The notes below the pieces were generated by a model. That model ran no database searches and was not told the DNA's origin. It saw nothing but the letters and a program-made list of their open reading frames with translations. Below, piece after piece: positions 4,418 to 20,492 of a stretch of DNA of 20,492 nucleotides (its first letter is position 1; every line of letters begins with the position of its first letter). A program made the translations under genes and the position numbers. The stretch comes from a virus: positions 1 to 20,492 of the IMG/VR virus record IMGVR_UViG_3300046532_004812. One strand, 5' to 3'.

Positions 4418-4828
4418 TTACAATAAAATATCTAACTTTTTAAAGAAATGCTTGGATAGTTTATCCTTTTCGTATATTTCCACTAACTGAATGTCATTTA
4501 AGTCGCAGAAATCTTGTTTTTGGTGGTCTCGTTTCAATTGCATTAGGTAGTTGTTCTTGTATTTGCCATGAAAGAAGGGGACGTGTCTGGTGTGCTGACC
4601 TCCCTGAACTTCTACCGCTATCTTTTTATTTGCATTGTAGAGATCTAGGGTCATGCGGGTGCCCGCAACGGGGAACTCTTCGAAGACAACATGCCTATTC
4701 CAGTACTCCTTTAGGAAGTCTTTAACTGACTTCTGAAACTTACTCCTACTACTTCCGTCCCAATCGATAGCATATTTTTGTACACTTATAATTTTACGAG
4801 TGGAGCCCGTAAGGGTTTTGAATTTCAA
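4418..4828 (-). CDS. Small PD-(D/E)XK / Vsr-DUF559-like endonuclease
   Basis: A 136-aa predicted nuclease. The visible catalytic signature is Asp62 (TLDLY), then Glu73 and Gln75 in AVEVQGGQH, that is D-x10-ExQ followed by a His, as in Vsr/DUF559-type members of the PD-(D/E)XK fold. A basic segment with Asp101 follows (QLKRDHQKQDF), then a beta strand (IQLVEIY). The substrate is unknown; a structure-specific or nicking enzyme used in recombination would fit the context. The gene starts with TTG at 4828, overlapping the TGA of the upstream gene by 4 nt (TTGA). A purine-rich GAAAGGG stands upstream as a likely ribosome binding site, and no ATG occurs in the first 50 codons. Homing or repair nucleases are alternatives. 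Confidence 0.65.
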   Translation of the reverse strand: MKFKTLTGSTRKIISVQKYAIDWDGSSRSKFQKSVKDFLKEYWNRHVVFEEFPVAGTRMTLDLYNANKKIAVEVQGGQHTRHVPFFHGKYKNNYLMQLKRDHQKQDFCDLNDIQLVEIYEKDKLSKHFFKKLDILL

Positions 4829-6504
4829 CTTTCTACCCTTTCAGAATGATCGTAGTGTATGAATCTGTCATGGGTTATTGGAGAAGCTAAAAGGACTGCG
4901 CTTTTTAACTCTTCTCTTTTTGTTAATTGAAACATATGGGACATCCATGTTTGCTCGTATGGGCGTCCCCATGTGGTATCTATGAACATCTTTTGGTTGC
5001 CGGACTGGCTGACCACTTGAGGCCAATTGGCATAATAAACATCTCCAGTAAGATATGTTAAGTCTTCTTGTAGTTTCATTTCGTCGAACTTAACTAGAGG
5101 GGCTTTGGGGTCTAAGCCGTGCTCTGGCAGTTTGTTATAGTTGGGCCAGAACTCTTCGCGTACATTTTGGGGTACATTGTACCAAGACCACTGCGTTCTG
5201 TTGTCGCCAAAGAACTCGGTGAAGCTTAGTTTTAGGAAATCTAGACCCTCGGATTGCATTATCTTTATTGACTTATTAAAAATGTTGTCAACATATTTTC
5301 TGAATCCATTTTTACAGCAACCGATTTCGCTTGGGGGGTTTAGAAACATGTCGTCTTCAAAGAACATCATGTACTCGCAGTTCGTGGAGGCAAAATGCTC
5401 GGCAATAAATTGCCTGCCTCCGCATATGCCGATATTGTCTTTTTTAATTATTTCAAAACCATTTTGTTTTGCTATTAAGGCATTATCCTCAAAGACATTG
5501 CGATCTGTGGAGTTATCTAGTACATATTTCTCCTCGAATCCGCTAAGGAAGTTTCCTGCCTGATCAAATGACTCTATAATTTTGGATAGCTGCTGAGGTG
5601 AGTTGAATGTTAAAATATATAGAGCACAGCTAGAGTTGCTGGTCTTAACCTTTGGTTTGTCTTCGGAGTTTTCATTGTAGTTTTTTAAATACTCAAAAAA
5701 TGGTCCTATTAGGCCAGAGTTTGACTCTTCAAGCTCAAACCTATTGTATACTTCTGGCTGAACATGAGACATTATGGTAAAGATACTCTCTTCTGTACCC
5801 ATAAAGCCCTCGTGCAGGGATTGGCTTAGTAGCCTGTAGTAATATTCATTAGCATAAGCTATCCAGTCTTTATGCCCTCCAAATAACCCACCCCTGCATA
5901 CATACTGGGGGTCTGAAGAGCAATACCTCTCCATCTCGTTTCTGGGGAATCCATGTATTTCTCCCCCGTCCTTATAGGAAAAAGATATAAATAAAAACTT
6001 ATCAATAACATTATGAATTTTATCCATAACTTTATCGTGAGTAAAGTATCCCTCGTGAACTGTATTGGTTATTGCTCCATCAACCCAAACAAAATATTCT
6101 GTATCAAAGGGGTTGAATATTCTTGCGTCATTAAGCATGAACATCTTAGACATCACCATTGGGTTATATAAATCTAGGGTGGCTTGTGTGCTTTCTCTGA
6201 GCCAAGAGGCTTGATTAAGCCAGCTATCTTGAGATCTTATTTCTTGAACCTGATCGTAGAAGGGGAACATTTGGCCCTTCATGGATTCAGTTTCCTTTAT
6301 AACTAGGTGGGTGTTTTCCTTGCTTCTATACTCCCAGACAAAACTCTCATTTTCAGATTCTATAAAAATAACCATCGGACAGTCCGTGGCTAAAAGTTTT
6401 TTAAAGTTTTCTAGGTAATGACTGAAGGGCCTCTTGAAGCCTTCGCCAGCGGCATCCCTAGAGAGATTCCAAATCCCCGTAACGATTGTTGTGTGTTGGG
6501 CCAT
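4825..6504 (-). CDS. Two-domain protein: YibB/HtrL-like domain fused to a GT-A glycosyltransferase
   Basis: A 559-aa predicted sugar-transfer protein. Residues 1 to about 280 resemble the HtrL/YibB (WlaTC) family: TIVTGIW near the start, FVWVDGAIT with an acidic residue at 142, CRGGLFGGHKDW near 203-214 and GTEESIF near 236. After an Asn/Glu/Lys-rich linker (about 273-290) a second domain starts with ALYILTFNSP and reaches an EDD motif (383-385, MMFFEDDMFL), the expected metal/nucleotide-sugar site of a GT2-like GT-A fold. I chose the ATG at 6504. An in-frame ATG at 6564 would add 20 residues but would lie inside the methyltransferase gene, whereas 6504 leaves a 13-nt gap and matches where the family begins. 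Donor and acceptor are unknown. The family assignment of the first domain is from memory of its motifs. Confidence 0.72.
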   Translation of the reverse strand: MAQHTTIVTGIWNLSRDAAGEGFKRPFSHYLENFKKLLATDCPMVIFIESENESFVWEYRSKENTHLVIKETESMKGQMFPFYDQVQEIRSQDSWLNQASWLRESTQATLDLYNPMVMSKMFMLNDARIFNPFDTEYFVWVDGAITNTVHEGYFTHDKVMDKIHNVIDKFLFISFSYKDGGEIHGFPRNEMERYCSSDPQYVCRGGLFGGHKDWIAYANEYYYRLLSQSLHEGFMGTEESIFTIMSHVQPEVYNRFELEESNSGLIGPFFEYLKNYNENSEDKPKVKTSNSSCALYILTFNSPQQLSKIIESFDQAGNFLSGFEEKYVLDNSTDRNVFEDNALIAKQNGFEIIKKDNIGICGGRQFIAEHFASTNCEYMMFFEDDMFLNPPSEIGCCKNGFRKYVDNIFNKSIKIMQSEGLDFLKLSFTEFFGDNRTQWSWYNVPQNVREEFWPNYNKLPEHGLDPKAPLVKFDEMKLQEDLTYLTGDVYYANWPQVVSQSGNQKMFIDTTWGRPYEQTWMSHMFQLTKREELKSAVLLASPITHDRFIHYDHSERVES

Positions 6505-6517
6505 GGGTTGGTTTTGG

Positions 6518-7171
6518 CTAGGATTTAATAAACGACCCCCACACGCAAGATCTAAACTCGTCATATCTAAACGGAAGTAGGTTGTTTGCGGTGATGGCTG
6601 GCTCTAGTTCTACATATGTGGATTCACACCAGCTCCAAATTTTGCCTTTCACATTTTCTTCAAAATCTTTTCTATCGGAAGAGTAATCGTGAGACATGAT
6701 TATATCGCCAGATTTAAGAAAGGGCGACAGGGTTTTGAATTCATTAATTTTATACCCCCCATCGCAAAGCAGCAGTGTGGTTCCGGATCCCTGTATGTCT
6801 AACTTTAATTCGTTAAGATTTTCTGTGTCGTTCGGGTCGAAGCAACTCTTTATTCTGTGATCAATGCCCATCTCCTTGAGCCCCTTGTGCCATTGATTTG
6901 GGGTAATGTCATAGCTAATAATTTTAGCATTAACATTTAACTCTTCTGAGGCAAACTTTAGAAATCTGGTGAGGCCGCCCGCTGCGGTGCCTATTTCTAT
7001 AATGGTGGAGGGTTTTTCGTCTGAAATTAATTGCCACAAAGAAAAGAAGGCTTTGTGATGCTGCATTACTGTATGTCCGTTACCCTCATGATCAATAAAC
7101 CCACATAGGCCGTTCTCATGGTTTTTTTCGGGATCGTAATTTAATTTACTTTCAAGTATTGAGTTGTTCAT
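6518..7171 (-). CDS. SAM-dependent methyltransferase, class I (CmcI/Methyltransf_24-like)
   Basis: A 217-aa Rossmann-fold methyltransferase. The SAM-binding motif is IIEIGTAAGG at 57-66 (Glu59, Gly61), motif II places Asp88 in YDIT, and a later motif has Asp137 in LLLCDGGYK, followed by SGDIIMSHDYS. The CDGGYK...F-x8-GD-x-HD pattern is typical of CmcI/rhamnosyl O-methyltransferase-like enzymes, which often methylate sugars. Because glycosyltransferases surround it, capping or decorating a transferred sugar by O-methylation is a reasonable inference. The ATG at 7171 overlaps the upstream glycosyltransferase by 20 nt and no Shine-Dalgarno is seen, so translation is probably coupled. The length fits a single-domain methyltransferase with no added domain. 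Confidence 0.78.
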   Translation of the reverse strand: MNNSILESKLNYDPEKNHENGLCGFIDHEGNGHTVMQHHKAFFSLWQLISDEKPSTIIEIGTAAGGLTRFLKFASEELNVNAKIISYDITPNQWHKGLKEMGIDHRIKSCFDPNDTENLNELKLDIQGSGTTLLLCDGGYKINEFKTLSPFLKSGDIIMSHDYSSDRKDFEENVKGKIWSWCESTYVELEPAITANNLLPFRYDEFRSCVWGSFIKS

Positions 7172-8111
7172 ATTTAAGTTTTTTTAGAATGTTTTTTAAT
7201 CTGGCTGTGGGGCTTATGTTTTTTAGATAGTAATCTCTGGCATTTTCGCTAATAAAATTAAGCAGCTTGCTATCATCTTTTATTTCTTTAAATTTTTCTA
7301 TATATAAATCTCTATAGTTTTGGCCTCCCTGAGCATCGTACCTCTGATGTCTTTGCATATCTGGTAGCCTATCTATTGAGATGTAGTGGACATTGGGTAT
7401 AAGTTCCGGCTGGTAGGAATGCACGTACTCTAGGCGCATTTTAGGAAGACCTATAGCCATATATTCTATATCCCTATGGCAAATTTCGTATCCGCCTCCC
7501 GATAAAGAAAGGCCGACTTTGTACTTTATGATTTCTTTAAGGTAATCATCTAGGCTCATTGGCCTTACTCTGTCATTGACTAGTGGGTGTTTTTGTAGCT
7601 CTACCTCATCCCCCCGTCCGGTGGTGCTCCTGAAATACATCTTGTCCGTAAAGTCTTGATCAAAAGGCAGAAGCCTTCTTTGTCTGTAGTAAAAGCTATA
7701 GTCACACTTAGGGTCAAATGTAAACAATATGCTGTCTTCTATTGTGAAGTTAAAGTCGTTGGATTTTAGAATCTCCGGAAAGCCCCAGTTTGCTTGACCG
7801 TGAACAGCTAGTAGTAGGTCGTTTTTATTATTTCTGGGAACTAATATCTTTCCCCAAGAGTCGGTCCTTATCTCGGAAAATGAAATGATTTTAAATGAAT
7901 CCTCTTTATCGTCATGTATGATTATTTCGCAGTCTGGAACAACACAGTCAAACTCTTTAATTTTAACTTCAGCATCCTTACCCTTCTGCCAGCCATAGCC
8001 CATATGGAGCTCTGCATTAAAGTTATCTTTAAGGAATAGGGCGAGTTCGATAATGAAGTCATGCGAGGTCCATATCGGGTTAATTGTTTTATTGAAATAA
8101 ACTTTAATCAT
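7152..8111 (-). CDS. Putative glycosyltransferase, GT-B-like, family uncertain
   Basis: A 319-aa protein that I judge to be a glycosyltransferase mainly from its C-terminal half. There VGLSLSGGGYEICHRDIEYMAIGLP, written here as positions about 223-247, followed by an R/E-rich strand and LIPNVHYISI, resembles the donor-binding region of GT-B enzymes such as the CAP10-like group, where a Glu contacts the nucleotide sugar. The N-terminal part (KVYFNKTINPIWTSHDF, then IIHDD) has no motif I can name. The start at 8111 leaves 11 nt after the upstream stop. The in-frame ATG at 8186 would add 25 residues that overlap the upstream gene and look unlike a protein start (basic, Arg-rich). The gene lies between another glycosyltransferase and the methyltransferase. 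Confidence 0.6.
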   Translation of the reverse strand: MIKVYFNKTINPIWTSHDFIIELALFLKDNFNAELHMGYGWQKGKDAEVKIKEFDCVVPDCEIIIHDDKEDSFKIISFSEIRTDSWGKILVPRNNKNDLLLAVHGQANWGFPEILKSNDFNFTIEDSILFTFDPKCDYSFYYRQRRLLPFDQDFTDKMYFRSTTGRGDEVELQKHPLVNDRVRPMSLDDYLKEIIKYKVGLSLSGGGYEICHRDIEYMAIGLPKMRLEYVHSYQPELIPNVHYISIDRLPDMQRHQRYDAQGGQNYRDLYIEKFKEIKDDSKLLNFISENARDYYLKNISPTARLKNILKKLKYEQLNT

Positions 8112-8122
8112 TTTGGGTCTTT

Positions 8123-8902
8123 TTACATTAGCTCTTCGGGTGGAAGGCTGCCAATGCCGGTAACGGGGCTCCCGAAAAAGTTGCACACGAACCCAAGGTT
8201 ATGAAGGTTCCAAAAATCAGTGTAATTTTCAATGCCCCATTTTCTCCTTTGATCATATGCAAAAAAAGTCATGTTTGCTTCCTGCATTGATATTGCTATT
8301 GGGTAGCCTATCCTGAAGGTTGTGTGACTCTTGGGTGTTAGTTTCTCGATTTTTTTCCAAGTTTCAATAAATTTATTTAGTTTGTCGCTAACTCTAAAAA
8401 CTAGATTGGTTTCCATGGGGATTGGGTATCGGGAGGGGGTCCAATTAAGGGGTTTGACAACTGGGTCCCAGTTTTTGTCGCCAGTAGCCTTTCCTATCCT
8501 GCAGAAAAAGCAATCCACGGCCTTCATGCTTTCGTGGTTGAAAAAGTTTTTGACTGTTTCGCTATCGAAATTTGAATTAGGGAAAGTGTCTACGTCGCAG
8601 TAAATTATGAATTTGGAATCAAAGGACATTAAAGCTTCATTGATGGCATGAAGCTTTATGTGCATCCATATGCTTTTGGTTCTTTCTGACTTAAGTATGT
8701 ATTTATCACCTACATCCACAAGTTTAACTCTTGCGTTATTTTGAAATTCAGAAAAGGATTCGACCTTATTGGTGAGTAAAACTATATTGTATGGTGTATT
8801 GTTAAGGGAGTGCTTTAAGAAATTAACCCCCCATTTTATGTAGCTTTTCTTGATACTTCCGAGACTAATAGCTGCAGAAGTTAATGTGACTTCTTGACTC
8901 AT
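8123..8902 (-). CDS. Putative GT-A glycosyltransferase with DVD motif
   Basis: A 259-aa protein with the layout of a GT-A nucleotide-sugar transferase. An N-terminal Rossmann-like strand (TLTSAAISLG), strand IVLLTNK and helix KLHAINEAL are followed by the metal-binding DxD at 103-105 in FIIYCDVDTFP. The C-terminal half has METNLVFRVS and a WKKIEKLT helix. It recalls GT8-like or other small capsule/LPS transferases, but I cannot place it in a numbered family. The gene begins 3 nt after the stop of the GlcNAc-transferase-like gene and ends 11 nt before the next glycosyltransferase, so it belongs to the same run. Donor and acceptor are unknown. Confidence 0.65.
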   Translation of the reverse strand: MSQEVTLTSAAISLGSIKKSYIKWGVNFLKHSLNNTPYNIVLLTNKVESFSEFQNNARVKLVDVGDKYILKSERTKSIWMHIKLHAINEALMSFDSKFIIYCDVDTFPNSNFDSETVKNFFNHESMKAVDCFFCRIGKATGDKNWDPVVKPLNWTPSRYPIPMETNLVFRVSDKLNKFIETWKKIEKLTPKSHTTFRIGYPIAISMQEANMTFFAYDQRRKWGIENYTDFWNLHNLGFVCNFFGSPVTGIGSLPPEELM

Positions 8903-8905
8903 TGG

Positions 8906-10165
8906 CTAAAGGGGAACTTTAATCTGATCACACCAATCTTCGCTCTTTGAGTGGGGCCATACAATACAGTGATCTGGCTTTTGCGGGCTATGGAATGTTT
9001 TCCATATTTTACAATATCCATCTGGGTCTGACTTCGCTCTTTTGACCTCGTCTTCATTTAAATCTTCCCTGAAAATTGTATTTCCATTTTCATCATGGAA
9101 TGCTACGACCCAAAAGTCATAATCGGTAAGGGGGACTTGGTCAAATCCGACATCGACACAATGCTTGAAGATGGGGTGAAATGAACTGTCATAGGTGGGG
9201 TCGGTTTGTTTGACGGGGTTGGGCGGATAGTGGAGGTTTGTGGTATATTCCTGAACAGACCTCCTCCTCATACTAACGCCGCTATACTCTTCGTAGTCCT
9301 CGATGGTTCTTTCTGTGCCCACGTCATAATCTTCAAAGTCAATATCTTTTTCCTCTCCATCCATTTCGAAGAATTTTCTATTCCTTAGATGTGACTTGGA
9401 ATTTTGAAACCCCCAAGTGGGATCATCGTCCCAGCACTTTCTTGGCCTATGGGACCTAGAGTATTCATGGTAAACCACTGGCTTGTGTGGGTGAAAGAGA
9501 TCGTACCCATGGGTGTAAGCTCGAACGGTTAGGTTAATTTCTTCTCCATGAAAAAGGTAATACGGGTCGTATATTACTTCTTTGCAAAATTTTCCATCGA
9601 CGAAGATCATGTGGCCACTAATGAAGCGAGATGGGACGGGAAACTTTTTGTCTTCCCAGTCTGGAATTAGGCCGGATTTAAAAAACAATGCCCCTTCTGG
9701 GGTAAACCTATCGAAGTCCATTTGGGTGGCATGATCAAACTTTTCGCCGGTCTGCTGAATGAAGGCTGGACAGTAGGTTGTTAATAGTGGTTTTTTGTGG
9801 CCCTCTTTCTTGAGGTCCTTAAGCATGCCAATCAGGGCAAGATCCCAGTCTTTAATGAACCGATGGTGGGAGTCCAGCTGGAGGGTATATGTTTCATTCT
9901 TATACTTTTTATTAAGTAGGTGCCTGACCCAGCATACGCCTTTTGTCTTCTGGTAGTCAACTTCCTCAAAATCCAAAGAAGCATGTTTGCTCTTTAACTT
10001 TTCGAAGTCTTTTTCTAAATTATAGTAATTATCTTCATTGCAAACTTGGTCAATTACCCCTACCCTTAGTTTGTTTTTACCGCTGGACTGGGAAACTAAA
10101 TCCTGAACTGTATTTGTTAGATCTGGATCTCTATAGGAGGCTATTTGTATATATATGCTAGACAT
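8906..10165 (-). CDS. GlcNAc-transferase (Skp1-type, PF11397-like), copy 2
   Basis: A 419-aa glycosyltransferase of the family that includes the eukaryotic Skp1 polypeptide GlcNAc-transferase. It opens with IYIQIASYRDPDL at 4-16, has GVCWVRH at 76-82 and the central LQLDSHHRF at 95-103 (Asp98, His100 as a DxH in place of DxD). FHGEE and GYDLFHPHKPVVYHEYSR follow. A further C-terminal region of about 100 residues ends in VWPHSKSEDW. Known relatives transfer GlcNAc to hydroxyproline on protein; whether this enzyme acts on protein is not shown. It is clearly paralogous to the gene directly upstream, which it overlaps by 8 nt, with GAGG 10 nt before its ATG. Sequence divergence between the two suggests different acceptors or linkage steps. 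Confidence 0.82.
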   Translation of the reverse strand: MSSIYIQIASYRDPDLTNTVQDLVSQSSGKNKLRVGVIDQVCNEDNYYNLEKDFEKLKSKHASLDFEEVDYQKTKGVCWVRHLLNKKYKNETYTLQLDSHHRFIKDWDLALIGMLKDLKKEGHKKPLLTTYCPAFIQQTGEKFDHATQMDFDRFTPEGALFFKSGLIPDWEDKKFPVPSRFISGHMIFVDGKFCKEVIYDPYYLFHGEEINLTVRAYTHGYDLFHPHKPVVYHEYSRSHRPRKCWDDDPTWGFQNSKSHLRNRKFFEMDGEEKDIDFEDYDVGTERTIEDYEEYSGVSMRRRSVQEYTTNLHYPPNPVKQTDPTYDSSFHPIFKHCVDVGFDQVPLTDYDFWVVAFHDENGNTIFREDLNEDEVKRAKSDPDGYCKIWKTFHSPQKPDHCIVWPHSKSEDWCDQIKVPL

Positions 10166-11420
10166 TTACCGGAACCTCGCCCTCAATGATATCCATCCAG
10201 TCCTTGGATTTGGAGTGCGGCCAAACAAGCCAAGTGTGTGGTAGTTCGGCGGTTTCAAATTCTCGCCACAACCTAACGAAATCGTCAGAAGGATTTCCAT
10301 TGAGAAGGTTTTTAACTTCGCCTTCACTCGCATCTAGCCGCACCATTTCTTCTCCATTCTTATCCTTGAAGGCAATAACCCACACATCATAATCCTCCTC
10401 AGTAAACGAGGGTTTGTGTATGTCAATGCAATACTTAAATTGGGATACGAAATTTTTAATATATTCAGATTTTGTTTTAAATGGGGTTGGGGGCTCTTTT
10501 CGGTCTAGGGTGTGCTTCTGAATTTTTCTGTCTTTAAATGATATGCCAGAATAGATTTCATAGTCAGATAAAGATCTAACCTTTCCGAGTCCATACTTAG
10601 GAAAGTGCTGTCTCTTGCACCCGTCCATTCCGAGGAGCTTTCTGTATCTAGTAAAGCTTTGCTTGTTGAGGTTGCTCCATTTAGATACATCGTCCCAGTG
10701 TCTTGCCTTGCCGTCCCTAGTATAGTGGTGCCAGACCCAAGGTCTATGAAGGTGAAATAGATCATAGCCACAAGTATATGCTCTAGCCGCTAGAGAACTT
10801 TCTTCTCCGTGAAAATAAAGCTTTGGGTCGTATGGAACCTCCTCGCAAAACTTACCTAAAGTAAAAATGAAATGGCCACTTGTGAATCGGGCTCTTTCTG
10901 GGGTTTGGTTATTGAAGTCTTGAATGCTTTCTGGGAATATAAAAATTGGGCCTTCGGGCATAAATCTATCAATATACATTCTCCATACATCATTCAGCCT
11001 ATCCTCATCCTCTTTTTCTGGATCATAAGAGGGGAGATAAGCCGTAAGGAGGGGTCTTTCGGATCCGGAATCAGAAAGATCCTTAAGGGTGTCTTTAAGC
11101 TTTTCGTCCCAGTTCTCTATGAATCTATGGTGGGAATCTAGTTGGAGATAATATTCTTCCCCGTCGTAAAGCTCTTGTATTTTATGTCTAGCGTGGCAAA
11201 CGCCAACGCTCTTACTGTACAGAGTTTCGAAAACCTTAAAGTTTTTTCTCTTCTTGTATTTACTTAAATCATCAAAGCTTTCGTCTGGGTGATACTGCCT
11301 TGATATTCCAAACACCAAATTTCTTGGATTCTTTGCATTTTTAATACAATTTTCTATTGTGGGGATGAGTTCGGGATCCCTGTAACTAGCTATTGAAATA
11401 AATATTTTATTCTTTTTCAT
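10158..11420 (-). CDS. GlcNAc-transferase (Skp1-type, PF11397-like), copy 1
   Basis: A 420-aa paralogue of the following gene, collinear over its whole length. Shared blocks are IASYRDPEL (10-18), GVCHARH (73-79), LQLDSHHRF (92-100; Asp95, His97), FHGEE (203-207), GYDLFHLHRP (218-227) followed by a His-rich HHY, DYDVWVIAF (343-351) and VWPHSKSKDW (399-408). The DxH motif and IASYRDP opening define the PF11397-like GT-A family. It starts 14 nt inside the end of uvsX, which ties the sugar cassette to the recombinase transcript. No signal peptide or membrane segment is seen, so it should act in the host cytoplasm. The acceptor is unknown: phage virion protein, host protein, glycan or modified DNA all remain possible. 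Confidence 0.83.
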   Translation of the reverse strand: MKKNKIFISIASYRDPELIPTIENCIKNAKNPRNLVFGISRQYHPDESFDDLSKYKKRKNFKVFETLYSKSVGVCHARHKIQELYDGEEYYLQLDSHHRFIENWDEKLKDTLKDLSDSGSERPLLTAYLPSYDPEKEDEDRLNDVWRMYIDRFMPEGPIFIFPESIQDFNNQTPERARFTSGHFIFTLGKFCEEVPYDPKLYFHGEESSLAARAYTCGYDLFHLHRPWVWHHYTRDGKARHWDDVSKWSNLNKQSFTRYRKLLGMDGCKRQHFPKYGLGKVRSLSDYEIYSGISFKDRKIQKHTLDRKEPPTPFKTKSEYIKNFVSQFKYCIDIHKPSFTEEDYDVWVIAFKDKNGEEMVRLDASEGEVKNLLNGNPSDDFVRLWREFETAELPHTWLVWPHSKSKDWMDIIEGEVPVNV

Positions 11421-12504
11421 TGTCGAAGATATTATTAATGGTATTATAAAAGAAATCCTTTAAGTTTCCATTCGATTCAATCAGATCAAGCAGTTTGTTG
11501 TCCCCCTGAATCTTATCTGGACACTCAATCTTATTCTCCGCAAGCTCTTTGAGTATATCTTCGTCGAAAGAAATCCATGCTCCTTTTTTTTCTATAAAAC
11601 CCCACAAATACATCATGTCAATTATTTCCTTCTCGAGCCAAATAGAGTTCCCGTCTGCCCTTCCATACCTAATGGGGTATCTAACTTGAGCTCCGGTTTT
11701 TTCGTTAATGCTTTTTCTGAACCTGACTTTACAGTAGTGGCCAATTGGGTTTCCTTTGTCCTCTATTTTTGAGGCTGCTGGATTCTGCCACATAATATCA
11801 TTGTTGTACCTTTCCTCAAATTCAAGAATAAAATTAGAGTAATGCTTGATTGCGTTGCCTCCAGCCTGCTTTACTTTTGGGCCTCCTCGTGAGGCATAGG
11901 GGTTAGAAGACACTTCTACCCTTACTTGAGATGTGAGTATCATCATGTGTCCCATTTTGGTTATGGGCAAAACCATTTTTTTGAGAAAAACTGAGGTAAC
12001 GAGAGCTCCCCCTGCAACCTGCTCGCTTTCATTGAAAGGTTTATCCATATCATTCATCCTGCATAGGGCATCGACGCTATCGACTATGAACATATACTTT
12101 TTCTTTTCTTCGTTATTAAAAACAAGATCTCTTATTAACTCAAACACTTTCTCAAATATATTACAATCGAGTACGAAAAACCTTTCTGGGTCAGTGTTAA
12201 CTCCTGACCTTTTAAGCATGTCCTTACTAAGTCTACCTTCAGACTTAACTATAACAACCATTCCGTTACCCTTGAAGTGATCTTGGAAACTTTTTGCGAC
12301 AGCTAGAGCGCAGCTAGTTTTACCTCCCTCGTTCACTCCGGTAAATCGATGAGCTCCAGCGGAAAACCCTCCTCCTAGAGCTAAATCTAAATTAAGACTT
12401 CCGCTGGATATCTTATACTCTTCTTCGTTAAAATTATTAAAGTGATACTTCTTGTTATCTTTGTCTAATAGGAATTTATTGATTTGATCTAATGTCTTAC
12501 TCAT
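11407..12504 (-). CDS. uvsX: UvsX/RecA-type recombinase
   Basis: A 365-aa strand-exchange ATPase that would load on single-stranded DNA and drive phage recombination and recombination-dependent replication. Motifs: Walker A GVNEGGKT at 56-63, a catalytic glutamate in VKSEGR (Glu89), Walker B YMFIVDSVDAL at 137-147 (Asp142), the L2-like loop TSQVRVEVSS at 191-200 and GGNAIKHYSNFILEF at 215-229, matching the RecA GGNALKFY segment. Length and motif spacing fit T4 UvsX-like proteins. The ATG overlaps the upstream 110-aa gene by 4 nt (ATGA) and has AGAGGG 8 nt before it, one of the few clear Shine-Dalgarno sequences here. T4 also has a glucosyltransferase gene near uvsX and gene 41, a layout this window echoes. 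Confidence 0.93.
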   Translation of the reverse strand: MSKTLDQINKFLLDKDNKKYHFNNFNEEEYKISSGSLNLDLALGGGFSAGAHRFTGVNEGGKTSCALAVAKSFQDHFKGNGMVVIVKSEGRLSKDMLKRSGVNTDPERFFVLDCNIFEKVFELIRDLVFNNEEKKKYMFIVDSVDALCRMNDMDKPFNESEQVAGGALVTSVFLKKMVLPITKMGHMMILTSQVRVEVSSNPYASRGGPKVKQAGGNAIKHYSNFILEFEERYNNDIMWQNPAASKIEDKGNPIGHYCKVRFRKSINEKTGAQVRYPIRYGRADGNSIWLEKEIIDMMYLWGFIEKKGAWISFDEDILKELAENKIECPDKIQGDNKLLDLIESNGNLKDFFYNTINNIFDNEKE

Positions 12505-13923: not shown

Positions 13924-13952
13924 ATCTTAACATTAAATCAGGGGTTTGTCAA
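13924..13952 (-). promoter_or_regulatory. Sigma70-type promoter for nrdB
   Basis: Perfect TTGACA (13952-13947), a 17-nt spacer and TAAGAT (13929-13924). The -10 box, spacing and following ATTT match those upstream of nrdA. The TGA stop of the upstream 122-aa gene is embedded in the TTGACA box. The predicted 5' leader is about 35 nt. Confidence 0.65.
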
Positions 13953-14317
13953 GAGCAAACTGTAGTAATGGAAAAAGTTGCAGCGCCAGTTAAGCTAGAG
14001 CTGATGGACAGGCCGGTTGTGAGGTCAAGTGCGGTGGTTGGGCAAAAAGAAAATGATTCATGGCTTAAGGTTCCGTTTGCTGTAAACTTAAGAACCGTAG
14101 TTGATCCGTCCTTTATTGAAACAGAGTCTCCATCGGTAGCTCCTGATATAGTTAAATATACAGCAAAAAGGCCAATATTTGAGTTATGTAGGGCTCCGTC
14201 TACAGTAACATGGTGGTACTCTGTTGAAAAAGATTCCCTGTCTAGCAGGTCATTTGAGGTTAGTGGTCTCCAGTTATTGGTGAGTGAGTCCTTTAGGTGT
14301 AATTCTGAATTAGCCAT
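13949..14317 (-). CDS. Hypothetical protein, 122 aa, beta-rich, possibly structural
   Basis: An unrecognised protein. The N-terminal 35 residues are polar (LKDSLTNNWRPLTSNDLLDRE). From about residue 36 on it consists of short alternating strands rich in Thr, Ser, Val and Gly (VTVDGALHNSNIGLFAVYLTI, here residues about 37-57, then GDSVSIKDGSTTVLKFTANG and ATFSITTVC). This composition is typical of small beta-sandwich proteins such as phage decoration, neck or fibre-associated proteins, but no family is identified. A TATAATAG box lies 5 nt before the ATG with no -35 element, compatible with a late-type promoter and hence a virion role. The opposite strand has a 123-codon open frame over the same bases; I prefer this strand because every other gene is on it and the product looks folded. 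Confidence 0.6.
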   Translation of the reverse strand: MANSELHLKDSLTNNWRPLTSNDLLDRESFSTEYHHVTVDGALHNSNIGLFAVYLTISGATDGDSVSIKDGSTTVLKFTANGTLSHESFSFCPTTALDLTTGLSISSSLTGAATFSITTVCS

Positions 14318-14322
14318 ATACT

Positions 14323-14328
14323 ATTATA
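14323..14328 (-). promoter_or_regulatory. -10-like box TATAAT, 5 nt before the 122-aa gene
   Basis: AGTGTATAATAGTAT directly precedes the ATG. No -35 match is found 17 nt upstream, where the DNA is only T/A runs. The 20 nt up to and including the ATG match the corresponding gmd region at 16 of 20 positions by eye. Confidence 0.4.
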
Positions 14329-14372
14329 CACTAAAATAGGTTTTTTTAAATATTATTTTAATACAATTTTTA

Positions 14373-15413
14373 TTAAAGTTTTTTTAATAATTGACTGTAA
14401 TCATTTTGATACATTTTTTTTACGAGAAGTTTAAAGTCGGACTTCCGTACCCAGCCCAGCTCTTTTTCTGCTAGAGATGAGTCTCCGTGCAAAATGTCAA
14501 CTTCGGCAGGTCTGTAGAAGTCTTTGTTTATGTCAATTAATGTTGATCCATTGGTGCTATGCGTGCATTTTTCAAGAAGATTTGAGCCCGACCAGTAGTG
14601 TCCTATTTCTGCATTGAGAAGGCACTCTTCGACAAAATCTCTAATTGAGTGGGTGCGCCCAGAGCTTAGTACATAGTCTTTCGGCTTGTCTTGGTTTAGC
14701 ATTAGCCATACACCGTCTATAAAGTCTTCCGCATCGGACCAGTCTCTCTTGGCGTCAATATTGCCTAGGGACAAGGTTTTTATGGGTTCGTTTTGTTCAA
14801 TAGCTATCTTTATTGACGCAACTCCCCTTGAAATTTTTCTGGTAACAAAATCAGCTCCGCGTCTGACCCCCTCGTGGTTAAATAGCCATCCTTGAACGGC
14901 ATACATGTCGTATGAGTCTCTGTAAACCTTCACGATTTGTCTAGCGGAAACCTTGGACGCTCCATATATGCTTCTTGGTCTTGGCGGATGAGTCTCGTTT
15001 TGTGGGCAGGATATAACGTCCCCAAATTCCTCACTACTTCCGGCATTGTAATATCTGCATGCACGGCAATGTTTTTTTATGGACTCAAGTTGATATAGTA
15101 CTGACATACAGTTTGTCTCCATGTGATTAACTGGCATCTTCCAGCTATTACCGACAAACGAGTTTGCTGCAAAATTAATAAAGTAATCAGGCTGTTCTTC
15201 AGAGATAACTGATGAAGTGTTTTCTGGGTCAGTTATGTCGAGATCAATTAGTTTAAATCTGGGGTGACCTTTTAAGTGCTCAATGTTTTGGTGATTACTA
15301 ACGCTCAGCCTCCTAATGCCGCCGACCACAAAGCCGAGGTTTTTATTTAAAAGATAATCAGCCATATGGCTGCCGTCTTGACCTGTGACTCCAGTGATTA
15401 ATATTTTTTTCAT
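14373..15413 (-). CDS. gmd: GDP-mannose 4,6-dehydratase
   Basis: A 346-aa short-chain dehydrogenase/reductase enzyme converting GDP-D-mannose to GDP-4-dehydro-6-deoxy-D-mannose, the precursor of GDP-fucose, GDP-rhamnose or GDP-perosamine. The NADP-binding GVTGQDG is at 8-14 and DLDITD near 57-62. The active-site Ser/Glu is in AGSSEEFG (124-131), with the catalytic YGASK at 150-154 (Tyr150, Lys154). Further typical Gmd segments are LFNHEG at 177-182, GNIDAKRDW at 217-225 and FYRPAEVD at 299-306. The length fits the family. No GDP-fucose synthase or RMD reductase is in the window, so the next step must be done by another phage gene or the host. It follows the Nudix gene after a 30-nt gap holding a palindromic TATAAT box. 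Confidence 0.93.
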   Translation of the reverse strand: MKKILITGVTGQDGSHMADYLLNKNLGFVVGGIRRLSVSNHQNIEHLKGHPRFKLIDLDITDPENTSSVISEEQPDYFINFAANSFVGNSWKMPVNHMETNCMSVLYQLESIKKHCRACRYYNAGSSEEFGDVISCPQNETHPPRPRSIYGASKVSARQIVKVYRDSYDMYAVQGWLFNHEGVRRGADFVTRKISRGVASIKIAIEQNEPIKTLSLGNIDAKRDWSDAEDFIDGVWLMLNQDKPKDYVLSSGRTHSIRDFVEECLLNAEIGHYWSGSNLLEKCTHSTNGSTLIDINKDFYRPAEVDILHGDSSLAEKELGWVRKSDFKLLVKKMYQNDYSQLLKKL

Positions 15414-19145: not shown

Positions 19146-19886
19146 TTAAATGTAGGGGTTAACCCTCCAGTCGTTAACCCAGCCGTCTTGGATATGACTT
19201 AGTACAACTGAGTCCCTAATCTGGGAGTGGCTGTTTGTTTTTCTGTTTTGATAGCTGGAGTAAGCATCGTCGCCATACAGATGCCCTTTTGTGGAGCCTA
19301 GGTTGGATTTTTCCCCAGTCTGGTCGGGCACATAGCTTGATATGTTGCCGTGTTTTTGGCACATATATCCAAAGTGTATATCCTCTGCATTTTCAAAGCT
19401 GATGGGCTCTTCCATGAAGAAGTATTTTAAATGATTTTTATCAAAAAACCAAGAGTGCCCGACAAGGTCAACCTCCATAAGTCCGCCTTTTCCGTTCCAG
19501 CCTACTTTGTGGTGGTTCGAGTAATTTGTTGACATTAACCTAATGCCGGAACACCCCAGAATTCCATCATGACCAGAGGTTATGGTGGACATGCAGTTTT
19601 CAAACCATTTACAGCCCGGTATAGTGTCGTCATCAAACATGGCTATATATTTTGTTTGAGCTAAAGTGGCTAGTGCAAACCTTCCAAAAAAGGAAAAATT
19701 ATGGTTAGATTGCACTACTCTATATTTGCCTTTAAGTTCTTTATTCAGATCAACCTGAGATCCGTCTTCTGGATTGTTGTACCAAATCCAAATATCTTTC
19801 GGGGGTATGGACTGGTTTTCTATTGATGAGATTTGATCCTTGAGGTAGTCCAGCCTCTTGTAGCAGGTTAAAATGGTTGTGATCAT
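19146..19886 (-). CDS. GT-A glycosyltransferase (GT2-like)
   Basis: A 246-aa glycosyltransferase. It starts ITTILTCYKRLDYLKDQI, has QSIPPKDIWIWYNN at about 25-38, and the metal-binding DDD at 85-87 in YIAMFDDDTIPG. The later FENAEDIHFGYMCQKHG segment (about 164-180) is the expected acceptor/catalytic acidic region. The combination resembles GT2-like and GT64-like enzymes; I do not assign it more closely. The ATG overlaps the WecB stop by 4 nt (ATGA), so the two are translationally coupled, implying that the sugar made by WecB is used by enzymes encoded with it. The protein ends WVNDWRVNPYI and lacks membrane segments. Confidence 0.78.
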   Translation of the reverse strand: MITTILTCYKRLDYLKDQISSIENQSIPPKDIWIWYNNPEDGSQVDLNKELKGKYRVVQSNHNFSFFGRFALATLAQTKYIAMFDDDTIPGCKWFENCMSTITSGHDGILGCSGIRLMSTNYSNHHKVGWNGKGGLMEVDLVGHSWFFDKNHLKYFFMEEPISFENAEDIHFGYMCQKHGNISSYVPDQTGEKSNLGSTKGHLYGDDAYSSYQNRKTNSHSQIRDSVVLSHIQDGWVNDWRVNPYI

Positions 19887-20492
19887 GCTTTATTTTTTGA
19901 TTGAATTATATTTTTAATTTTTAAACTAGACTGACCGTCACCATAGGGGCAGGGTTGACTAATGGTAAAATTGTTGTTAATCTTTTCAAAAATTGAAAGA
20001 AGCCCTTGGGGGTTTTCGCAAAGGTGGAGGTGTCCTGTTTTTATTCCTTCTGGGCGTTCTGTTGTTTTTCTGCAAACAATTACTTTTTTATTAAAAAACG
20101 AGCCTTCTTCTTGTAGTCCGCCACTATCGCTAATTATAAGCTTGCATCCAACTAGTATATCTAGTAGCTCGGAGTGGGGAAGGGGGCCTACTACGCTTAC
20201 GTTGGTAAGTAGATGTTTGTGTTTCTGTACATTTGGGTTTGGGTGTATTGGCAGTATGAAGTCTAGGCCTGAATTAAGGGCGGCCAGCTTATTAAGCTCA
20301 GTAAACCAACCCTCCATTTGGTGGTGATTTTCTCTTCTGTGAAGTGTCACTAGTACTTTATTGGCATATTTGCACTGATTTTTGTATGGTAATAAATTAT
20401 CCAAAACAGTATTTCCCACAACATGACATTCTCCTTTTACTTTTTCATTGATTAAATTTTGTTTAGACAGTTCTGTGGGGCATAAATTAACA
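19883..20492 (-). CDS. wecB: UDP-N-acetylglucosamine 2-epimerase, partial (N-terminus beyond window)
   Basis: The frame is open to the right edge, so about 203 C-terminal residues are present; the ATG/GTG-like codons inside (for example GTG at 20419) are not real starts. The enzyme interconverts UDP-GlcNAc and UDP-ManNAc. Family signatures are clear: LCPTELSKQNL at the edge, VVGNTVLDNLL, TLHRRENH, IHPNPNV, GPLPHSELLDIL, the UDP-binding ISDSGGLQEEG and CRKTTERPEG. These correspond to the C-terminal half of non-hydrolysing WecB-type epimerases of about 370 aa. A UDP-ManNAc dehydrogenase (WecC) is not seen, so ManNAc itself or a later product may be the transferred sugar. Its stop overlaps the next glycosyltransferase start by 4 nt. 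Confidence 0.92.
   Translation of the reverse strand, partial: VNLCPTELSKQNLINEKVKGECHVVGNTVLDNLLPYKNQCKYANKVLVTLHRRENHHQMEGWFTELNKLAALNSGLDFILPIHPNPNVQKHKHLLTNVSVVGPLPHSELLDILVGCKLIISDSGGLQEEGSFFNKKVIVCRKTTERPEGIKTGHLHLCENPQGLLSIFEKINNNFTISQPCPYGDGQSSLKIKNIIQSKNKA

Follow-up and report, generated by a model that had tools for sequence, protein, structure and literature searches.

TcOGNT1 of Trypanosoma cruzi is a family 60 glycosyltransferase (GT60) that attaches N-acetylglucosamine (GlcNAc) to threonine (Thr) of mucin-like proteins as GlcNAc-alpha-Thr, which starts the glycan chain (PMC9472816). In Dictyostelium, the GT60-type Skp1 enzyme GnT1 acts on hydroxyproline (PMC8724618). GT60 is grouped with GT27; both are involved in Ser/Thr O-glycosylation of polypeptides and both contain a DxH motif (PMC7185993), and GT60 is described as being without the ricin-like domain of GT27 (PMC8724618). 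Mycobacteriophage virions carry glycans on the C-termini of capsid and tail-tube proteins, according to work cited in PMC12619734. A literature search for GT60 or mucin-type glycosylation in phages found nothing among the matches listed. The present analysis concerns two adjacent GT60 genes, named copy A and copy B, in a viral DNA stretch of 20,492 bases (IMG/VR record IMGVR_UViG_3300046532_004812, positions 1 to 20,492), hereafter the window. Both copies match PF11397 and contain the DxH motif, as do TcOGNT1 and the mucin-type and Skp1 enzymes of Dictyostelium, and they may share with these GT60 alpha-GlcNAc-transferases a Thr-rich, mucin-like class of acceptors. Unlike TcOGNT1 and the Dictyostelium enzymes, the pair is phage-encoded and arranged in tandem, has a C-terminal module, belongs to a multi-enzyme cassette, and has no Golgi. 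The best-supported reading, with a probability of roughly 60%, is that A and B initiate O-glycosylation of Thr-rich proteins in the phage virion. The tandem, which was described in an earlier sequence-only reading, is real and more interesting than that reading stated.

The GT60 pair and its predicted fold

Copies A and B are adjacent open reading frames (ORFs) on the minus strand. A (10158-11420, 420 amino acids, aa) is transcribed first and shares an 8-base overlap with B (8906-10165, 419 aa). The sequence-only reading had described two collinear proteins of these lengths with a common set of motifs, and both ORFs and all motifs (IASYRDP, LQLDSHHRF, GYDLFH-HxP, and VWPHSKSxDW) are present. 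Its family assignment was borne out by the PF11397 profile, which scored 232.6 and 211.1 bits for the two copies, far above the cut-off of 21 bits (E 4e-62 for A and 1e-68 for B), and leads to the CAZy family GT60. phrog_24687 covers nearly the whole length of both copies (E 8e-135 and 1.4e-116). The DxH motif, which replaces DxD in GT60 (PMC7185993), is DSH at residues 95-97 in A and in B, and D95, H97, E207, and H231 (A numbering) occur without exception in an 89-row alignment. The GT60 membership of A and B is secure. The two copies are 41% identical over 419 aligned columns (E 1e-104), in agreement with the earlier description of a tandem that has full motifs in each copy yet is strongly diverged.

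The AlphaFold2 model of A, built from an 87-row alignment, reached a predicted local distance difference test score (pLDDT) of 95.2 and a predicted template modelling score of 0.89. When the model was searched with Foldseek, ranks 1-28 of the 50 matches listed were polypeptide N-acetylgalactosamine (GalNAc) transferases. VIA-align of the model with human ppGalNAcT-2 (2ffu) gave Z 22.5 and a root-mean-square deviation of 3.5 over 276 residues, and the predicted fold is a GT-A fold of the GT27 kind. The model of A resembles the polypeptide GalNAc-transferases, which are the initiators of mucin-type O-glycans, more than other PDB entries. Such likeness is by itself no proof of function; it fits the published statements on GT60 and GT27. 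GT27 enzymes such as human GalNAc-T2 provide the nearest solved fold and share the DxH motif, whereas their identity with the pair is about 13-14%, and the pair has a different, predicted beta-rich module where GT27 has its ricin-type lectin domain. In the profile search, no Pfam ricin match was found at E 0.1 in the window proteins.

The C-terminal 110 or so residues of A and B fall past the end of the PF11397 model, the best stretches of which end at residue 295 in one copy and at residue 299 in the other. In A, this module (residues 310-420; 10161-10493, minus strand) is a predicted beta-rich domain with pLDDT 90 when modelled by itself, and the part of B that aligns with it is located at 8909-9226 on the same strand. 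The module was found in 98 of 98 complete viral GT60 ORFs and in 44 of 76 complete bacterial ones, counting the best-scoring ORF per locus and including near copies; in 21 of the 76, the match stops more than 90 positions ahead of it. Therefore, the module is shared by viral and many bacterial GT60 proteins and is not peculiar to the A/B pair. The sequence-only reading had considered this region an acceptor-binding module. A separate, predicted self-folding module stands, whereas acceptor binding remains a guess because the PDB structure search with the isolated module of A gave no significant match (best E 0.032). Wzt carbohydrate-binding domains were among the weak, non-significant top rows of this search.

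Thr-rich proteins in GT60 phages

Genes encoding Thr-rich proteins recur immediately upstream of GT60. Loci with a GT60 more than 85% identical to a retained one were dropped, which reduced 93 loci to 51, and 38 of these had a usable upstream gene. This gene had at least 10% Thr in 22 of the 38 loci, compared with 55 of the 475 remaining ORFs in these loci (Fisher 1.5e-10), and outside the window lineage the proportion was 22 of 33. Among the upstream proteins, that of L074 is at least 1541 aa long and contains 39% Thr, and that of L040 has 1757 aa and contains 33% Thr. Thr-rich ORFs were found in 24 of 51 viral and 11 of 80 bacterial GT60 loci, and in 4 of 66 random and 10 of 69 collagen loci, with ORF rules and stretch lengths that vary among the four sets. 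The association was also found in contigs selected by pattern. PF11397 was present in 17 of 44 contigs with TPTx repeats (those of at least 40 kb among 80 listed) and in none of 33 contigs with an arbitrary 14-mer (26 of at least 40 kb and 7 of 30-40 kb, among 80 listed; Fisher 1.4e-5). When only contigs of at least 100 kb were counted, the figures were 11 of 17 and 0 of 11 (p 6e-4). An alternating-Thr DNA pattern was detected in 18 of 24 long GT60 records, namely 22 IMG/VR contigs of at least 99 kb and the phages XacN1 and RAS14, and in none of 26 controls, namely 18 random-pattern contigs above 50 kb and 8 of 25 collagen contigs (p 7e-9; p 1.5e-5 with controls of at least 99 kb). One collagen-pattern contig of more than 80 kb (L467) was excluded from these controls, being itself PF11397-positive.

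Phages with GT60-type enzymes usually have Thr-rich, mucin-like proteins as well, and these viruses may therefore sugar-coat parts of their own particles. A and B would be soluble polypeptide N-acetylhexosamine transferases that add the first sugar to Thr (and Ser) residues of long mucin-like stretches rich in Thr and Pro. The putative acceptors are virion proteins of the phage itself, tail-associated or adhesin-like, so that particle proteins would bear glycans as they do in mycobacteriophage virions.

The window lineage carries proteins with TPTSTI or TQTQTV repeats away from the pair, and all three of its long contigs (G006, G007, and G009) contain the alternating-Thr pattern. G006, in which A is combined with a third type of copy (C), has six Thr-rich genes, five of them at 95-114 kb and one encoding a 1180-aa TPTSTI-repeat protein. 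A tape-measure gene starts 4.4 kb away from this cluster and is followed by minor tail genes. G009, which has A and B as in the window, contains TQTQTV repeats within its first 12 kb. Out of eight contigs examined, five (G005, G018, G020, G017, and G027) had no Thr-rich segment in the parts read. The Thr-rich stretches of 8 tandem loci contain more Ser, Ile, and Val and less Asn than those of 41 single-GT60 loci, in a comparison that included near copies and ignored kinship. This difference by slot type is a lead only, because Ile/Val/Ser-type repeats also occur in the single-copy G014 and XacN1. In addition, phrog_15511 and phrog_5353, both of unknown function, match Thr-rich stretches of proteins from L203, L206, and L078; these PHROGs may represent low-complexity families within the mucin-like proteins of phages.

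Xanthomonas phage XacN1 is a cultured relative. Its GT60, ORF334 (37-40% identity with A and B), is followed by a carbamoyltransferase and an HtrL-cluster protein. XacN1 has 16 Thr-rich ORF pieces, nearly all mucin-like, which correspond to about 15 genes after allowing for piece borders; several of the mucin-like genes adjoin tail-sheath genes, and ORF369, ORF370, and ORF372 come after them. Proteomics by its authors revealed at least two virion glycoproteins, and its two annotated glycosyltransferases, ORF328 and ORF334, were proposed as their makers (PMC5852040). Like the window, XacN1 has a GT60 whose cassette includes an HtrL-cluster protein; XacN1 itself has many mucin-like genes. It differs in having a single GT60 copy, and the available portion of the authors' text names no mucin-like acceptors. 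The virion proteomics data are deposited (PXD008065, cited in PMC5852040), which makes the mucin idea testable now.

Several observations weigh against virion proteins as the acceptors of the pair. Activity, donor, or glycopeptide is on record for no phage GT60. The 20-kb window contains no mucin-like gene, and in the window lineage (5 of the 38 loci) the gene preceding the pair is uvsX instead of a Thr-rich one. The alternating-Thr pattern is missing from 6 of the 24 long GT60 records, PF11397 is missing from 27 of the 44 TPTx contigs, and Thr-rich neighbours are rare at the 80 bacterial GT60 loci. The reversed pattern gave a much smaller number of hits, which fell in 4 of the 24 GT60 records and 1 of the 26 controls. 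XacN1 has a second glycosyltransferase, ORF328, and its sugar-bearing proteins are not named in the accessible part of PMC5852040. Moreover, the 7 shorter contigs of the 14-mer set lie below 40 kb, and control contigs were unmatched in habitat, host, and G+C. The shared ecology of large aquatic phages could therefore underlie the co-occurrence.

The main rival explanation is that the cassette modifies host surface glycans, such as lipopolysaccharide, against superinfection, and that the Thr-rich proteins are mere neighbours in a host-recognition region. A pelagimyophage survey interprets the glycosyltransferases of this region in such a way (PMC7029224), the cassette and surface-glycan loci have enzyme classes in common, and the window encodes a GDP-mannose dehydratase and an Epimerase_2 protein. 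This explanation is considered unlikely, given that the known GT60 acceptors described in PMC9472816 and PMC7185993 are polypeptides and that PF11397 was found in only 1 of 25 contigs with a collagen-like pattern (those of at least 40 kb among 80 listed), compared with 17 of 44 TPTx contigs (Fisher 1e-3). The window lineage also has both the cassette and Thr-rich genes, although these are not adjacent.

It is more improbable still that the substrate of the pair is phage DNA, with sugars added at hydroxymethylated pyrimidines as by the T-even glucosyltransferases. Copy A comes after a UvsX-like gene, and the T4 beta-glucosyltransferase gene is situated near uvsX. The GT60-bearing XacN1 and RAS14 have PF00303 genes (synthase or hydroxymethylase), and the HtrL_YibB protein of the window weakly matches a DNA glucosyltransferase PHROG (E 0.002). 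The carbamoyltransferases of GT60 cassettes recall the hydroxymethylcytosine carbamoyltransferase described in PMC8670742. However, PF00303 was detected in 0 of 16 IMG/VR contigs of one GT60 set and in 6 of 22 long GT60 contigs, including 0 of 3 from the window lineage, all of which are possibly incomplete. Tet_JBP was found in 0 of 24 long GT60 records by a search without a positive control, and the closest solved folds are peptide transferases. The sequence-only reading had emphasized hydroxyproline, the acceptor of the Dictyostelium Skp1 enzyme GnT1 (PMC8724618), and the Thr-rich repeats are indeed also Pro-rich. A PF13640 dioxygenase occurs in only 1 of 24 GT60 records, in a search that covered this single 2-oxoglutarate oxygenase family and the phage records rather than host enzymes, and the context favours Thr-rich proteins. 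A Skp1-like transfer to hydroxyproline of a phage or host protein is therefore the least probable of the acceptors considered. The scarcity of PF00303, Tet_JBP, and PF13640 makes DNA and hydroxyproline less likely acceptors than Thr/Ser.

Exchange of the second slot

Searching with A brought up ten contigs that encode an A-type enzyme (70-81% identity). A second GT60 adjoins the A-type gene in nine of them, and the tenth contig stops inside A. The second position (slot 2) of these nine contigs is occupied by a B-type copy (67-83%) in three and by a C-type copy (30-36% identity to A and B) in six. Two GT60 genes were also found in 18 of 80 viral loci of a wider set (L027-L106), two of the 18 being contigs already counted above, and 62 of the 80 loci show one GT60 within the stretch covered. 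A scan of IMG/VR found at least 586 related stretches.

Two close phages, L007 and L008, are 94.7% identical in DNA across 4.9 kb spanning nrdB, uvsX, and A. The blastn match stops 7-10 bases before A ends. Past this point, B is present in one phage and C in the other, and everything downstream of A, slot 2 included, differs between them. Since the identity ends near the end of A, slot 1 is tied to the conserved flank and slot 2 to the part that is exchanged. The UvsX-like recombinase gene of the window (11407-12504, minus strand; phrog_97, E 3e-37) belongs to this upstream flank, which is kept in the window lineage, and is context outside the glycosylation system. Copy A in slot 1 would be a general initiator, and slot 2 (B, or C in relatives) would hold a second isoenzyme that prefers other sequences or glycopeptides and travels together with the exchangeable cassette. 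Subfunctionalization of the copies, as the sequence-only reading had suggested, is plausible, as slot 2 is swapped while slot 1 is retained.

Alternatively, A could add the first and B the second sugar of one chain, instead of both acting on the peptide. The gene order agrees with such successive transfer, and so does the joint change of slot 2 and the downstream cassette between the two close phages. It is nevertheless doubtful, as both copies retain the same motifs and C-terminal module, 62 of the 80 viral loci show one GT60, and other families are available for elongation.

The A/B pair is old, judging from sequence comparison. A recent tandem duplication was ruled out by the 41% identity and by the separate clades, which have supports of 100/98 (A), 100/100 (B), and 100/100 (C) in a 59-row tree. 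The place of B varies: it is near single-copy enzymes in a quick 113-row tree (support 91) and with C in the 59-row tree (82/90, long stems), whereas a 30-row tree joins A with C (90). Approximately unbiased (AU) tests reject none of the groupings A+B (p 0.51), B+C (p 0.25), and A+B+C (p 0.26). Thus, on duplication or two acquisitions, phylogeny supports separate old clades and is compatible with each of these groupings. Kinship of the lineage with T4 was rejected, since even the best UvsX matches in a set of 75 phage records stayed below 60% identity (24-28% in 25 listed) and the tail genes of the long relative G006 are siphovirus-like. A 5.7-kb contig of a metagenome-assembled genome binned as bacterial (L107, JAKPTO010000033.1) also carries a phage-like GT60 pair, the second copy being of the C type, and is probably phage DNA. 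In L467, the 87.9-kb phage contig with the collagen pattern, two short GT60 genes (open frames of 319 and 338 aa) lie far apart on opposite strands.

The glycan cassette and neighbouring genes

GT60 is usually the first gene of a multi-enzyme cassette that looks like an oligosaccharide assembly line. Counts refer to 93 viral GT60 loci, which include the window and near copies, and cluster labels come from one representative each. In the window, all cassette genes are on the minus strand. A gene for a 259-aa protein (8123-8902) starts 3 bases after B; it has a homologue in L005/L007 and no Pfam or PHROG match above the cut-off. It is followed by a gene for a 344-aa protein with no family assigned (7152-8186; cluster in 27 of 93 loci) and by a methyltransferase-like gene (6518-7171; cluster in 20) of the sugar O-methyltransferase family RMNT_CmcI (PF04989, 24.8 bits, cut-off 23.2). 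The next gene encodes a 579-aa HtrL_YibB-domain protein (4825-6564; PF09612, E 3e-10) and is followed by a gene for a small endonuclease-like protein. Pfam lists HtrL_YibB as a family of unknown function. Its cluster is found in 82 of the 93 loci, 2-6 genes downstream of GT60 in at least 71 of these, and some relatives are 745-1017 aa long; the cassette context suggests that it is a glycan enzyme. The clusters that recur besides HtrL_YibB are an unassigned 317-aa one (27 loci), GT25-like (22), methyltransferase-like (20, as above), and carbamoyltransferase (12), and rarer ones are GT2-like (8), GT10-like (7), GT7C-like (6), and GDP-mannose dehydratase (5). After initiation by A and B, the chain would be lengthened and capped by the unassigned proteins, the sugar methyltransferase, and the HtrL_YibB protein, and in other phages by members of the GT25, GT2, GT10, GT7, and carbamoyltransferase families.

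A broader proposal, which is held tentatively, is that many aquatic phages make their own mucins through a cytoplasmic system, in which paired GT60 initiators, with a conserved slot 1 and an exchangeable slot 2 matched to the carrier repeat, begin the glycans on Thr-rich virion proteins, and a swappable cassette determines the glycan displayed. If O-glycan initiation on virion proteins is true, many Thr-rich phage proteins that now lack annotation would gain a function as glycan carriers, and mucin-type O-glycosylation, which is eukaryotic in the cited papers, would be common in phages, given the at least 586 related IMG/VR stretches. Exchangeable glycan cassettes would then be an added layer in the recognition between phage and host and in the protection of particles; the soluble GT60 enzymes could be useful tools.

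Elsewhere in the window, opposite-strand overlapping ORFs of 122 and 123 aa occupy 13949-14339, between an nrdB-like gene and the GDP-mannose dehydratase gene; the minus-strand ORF is without a PHROG match. The GDP-mannose 4,6-dehydratase (14373-15413) and a partial UDP-GlcNAc 2-epimerase-family protein (Epimerase_2, 19883-20491) are possible makers of donor sugars.

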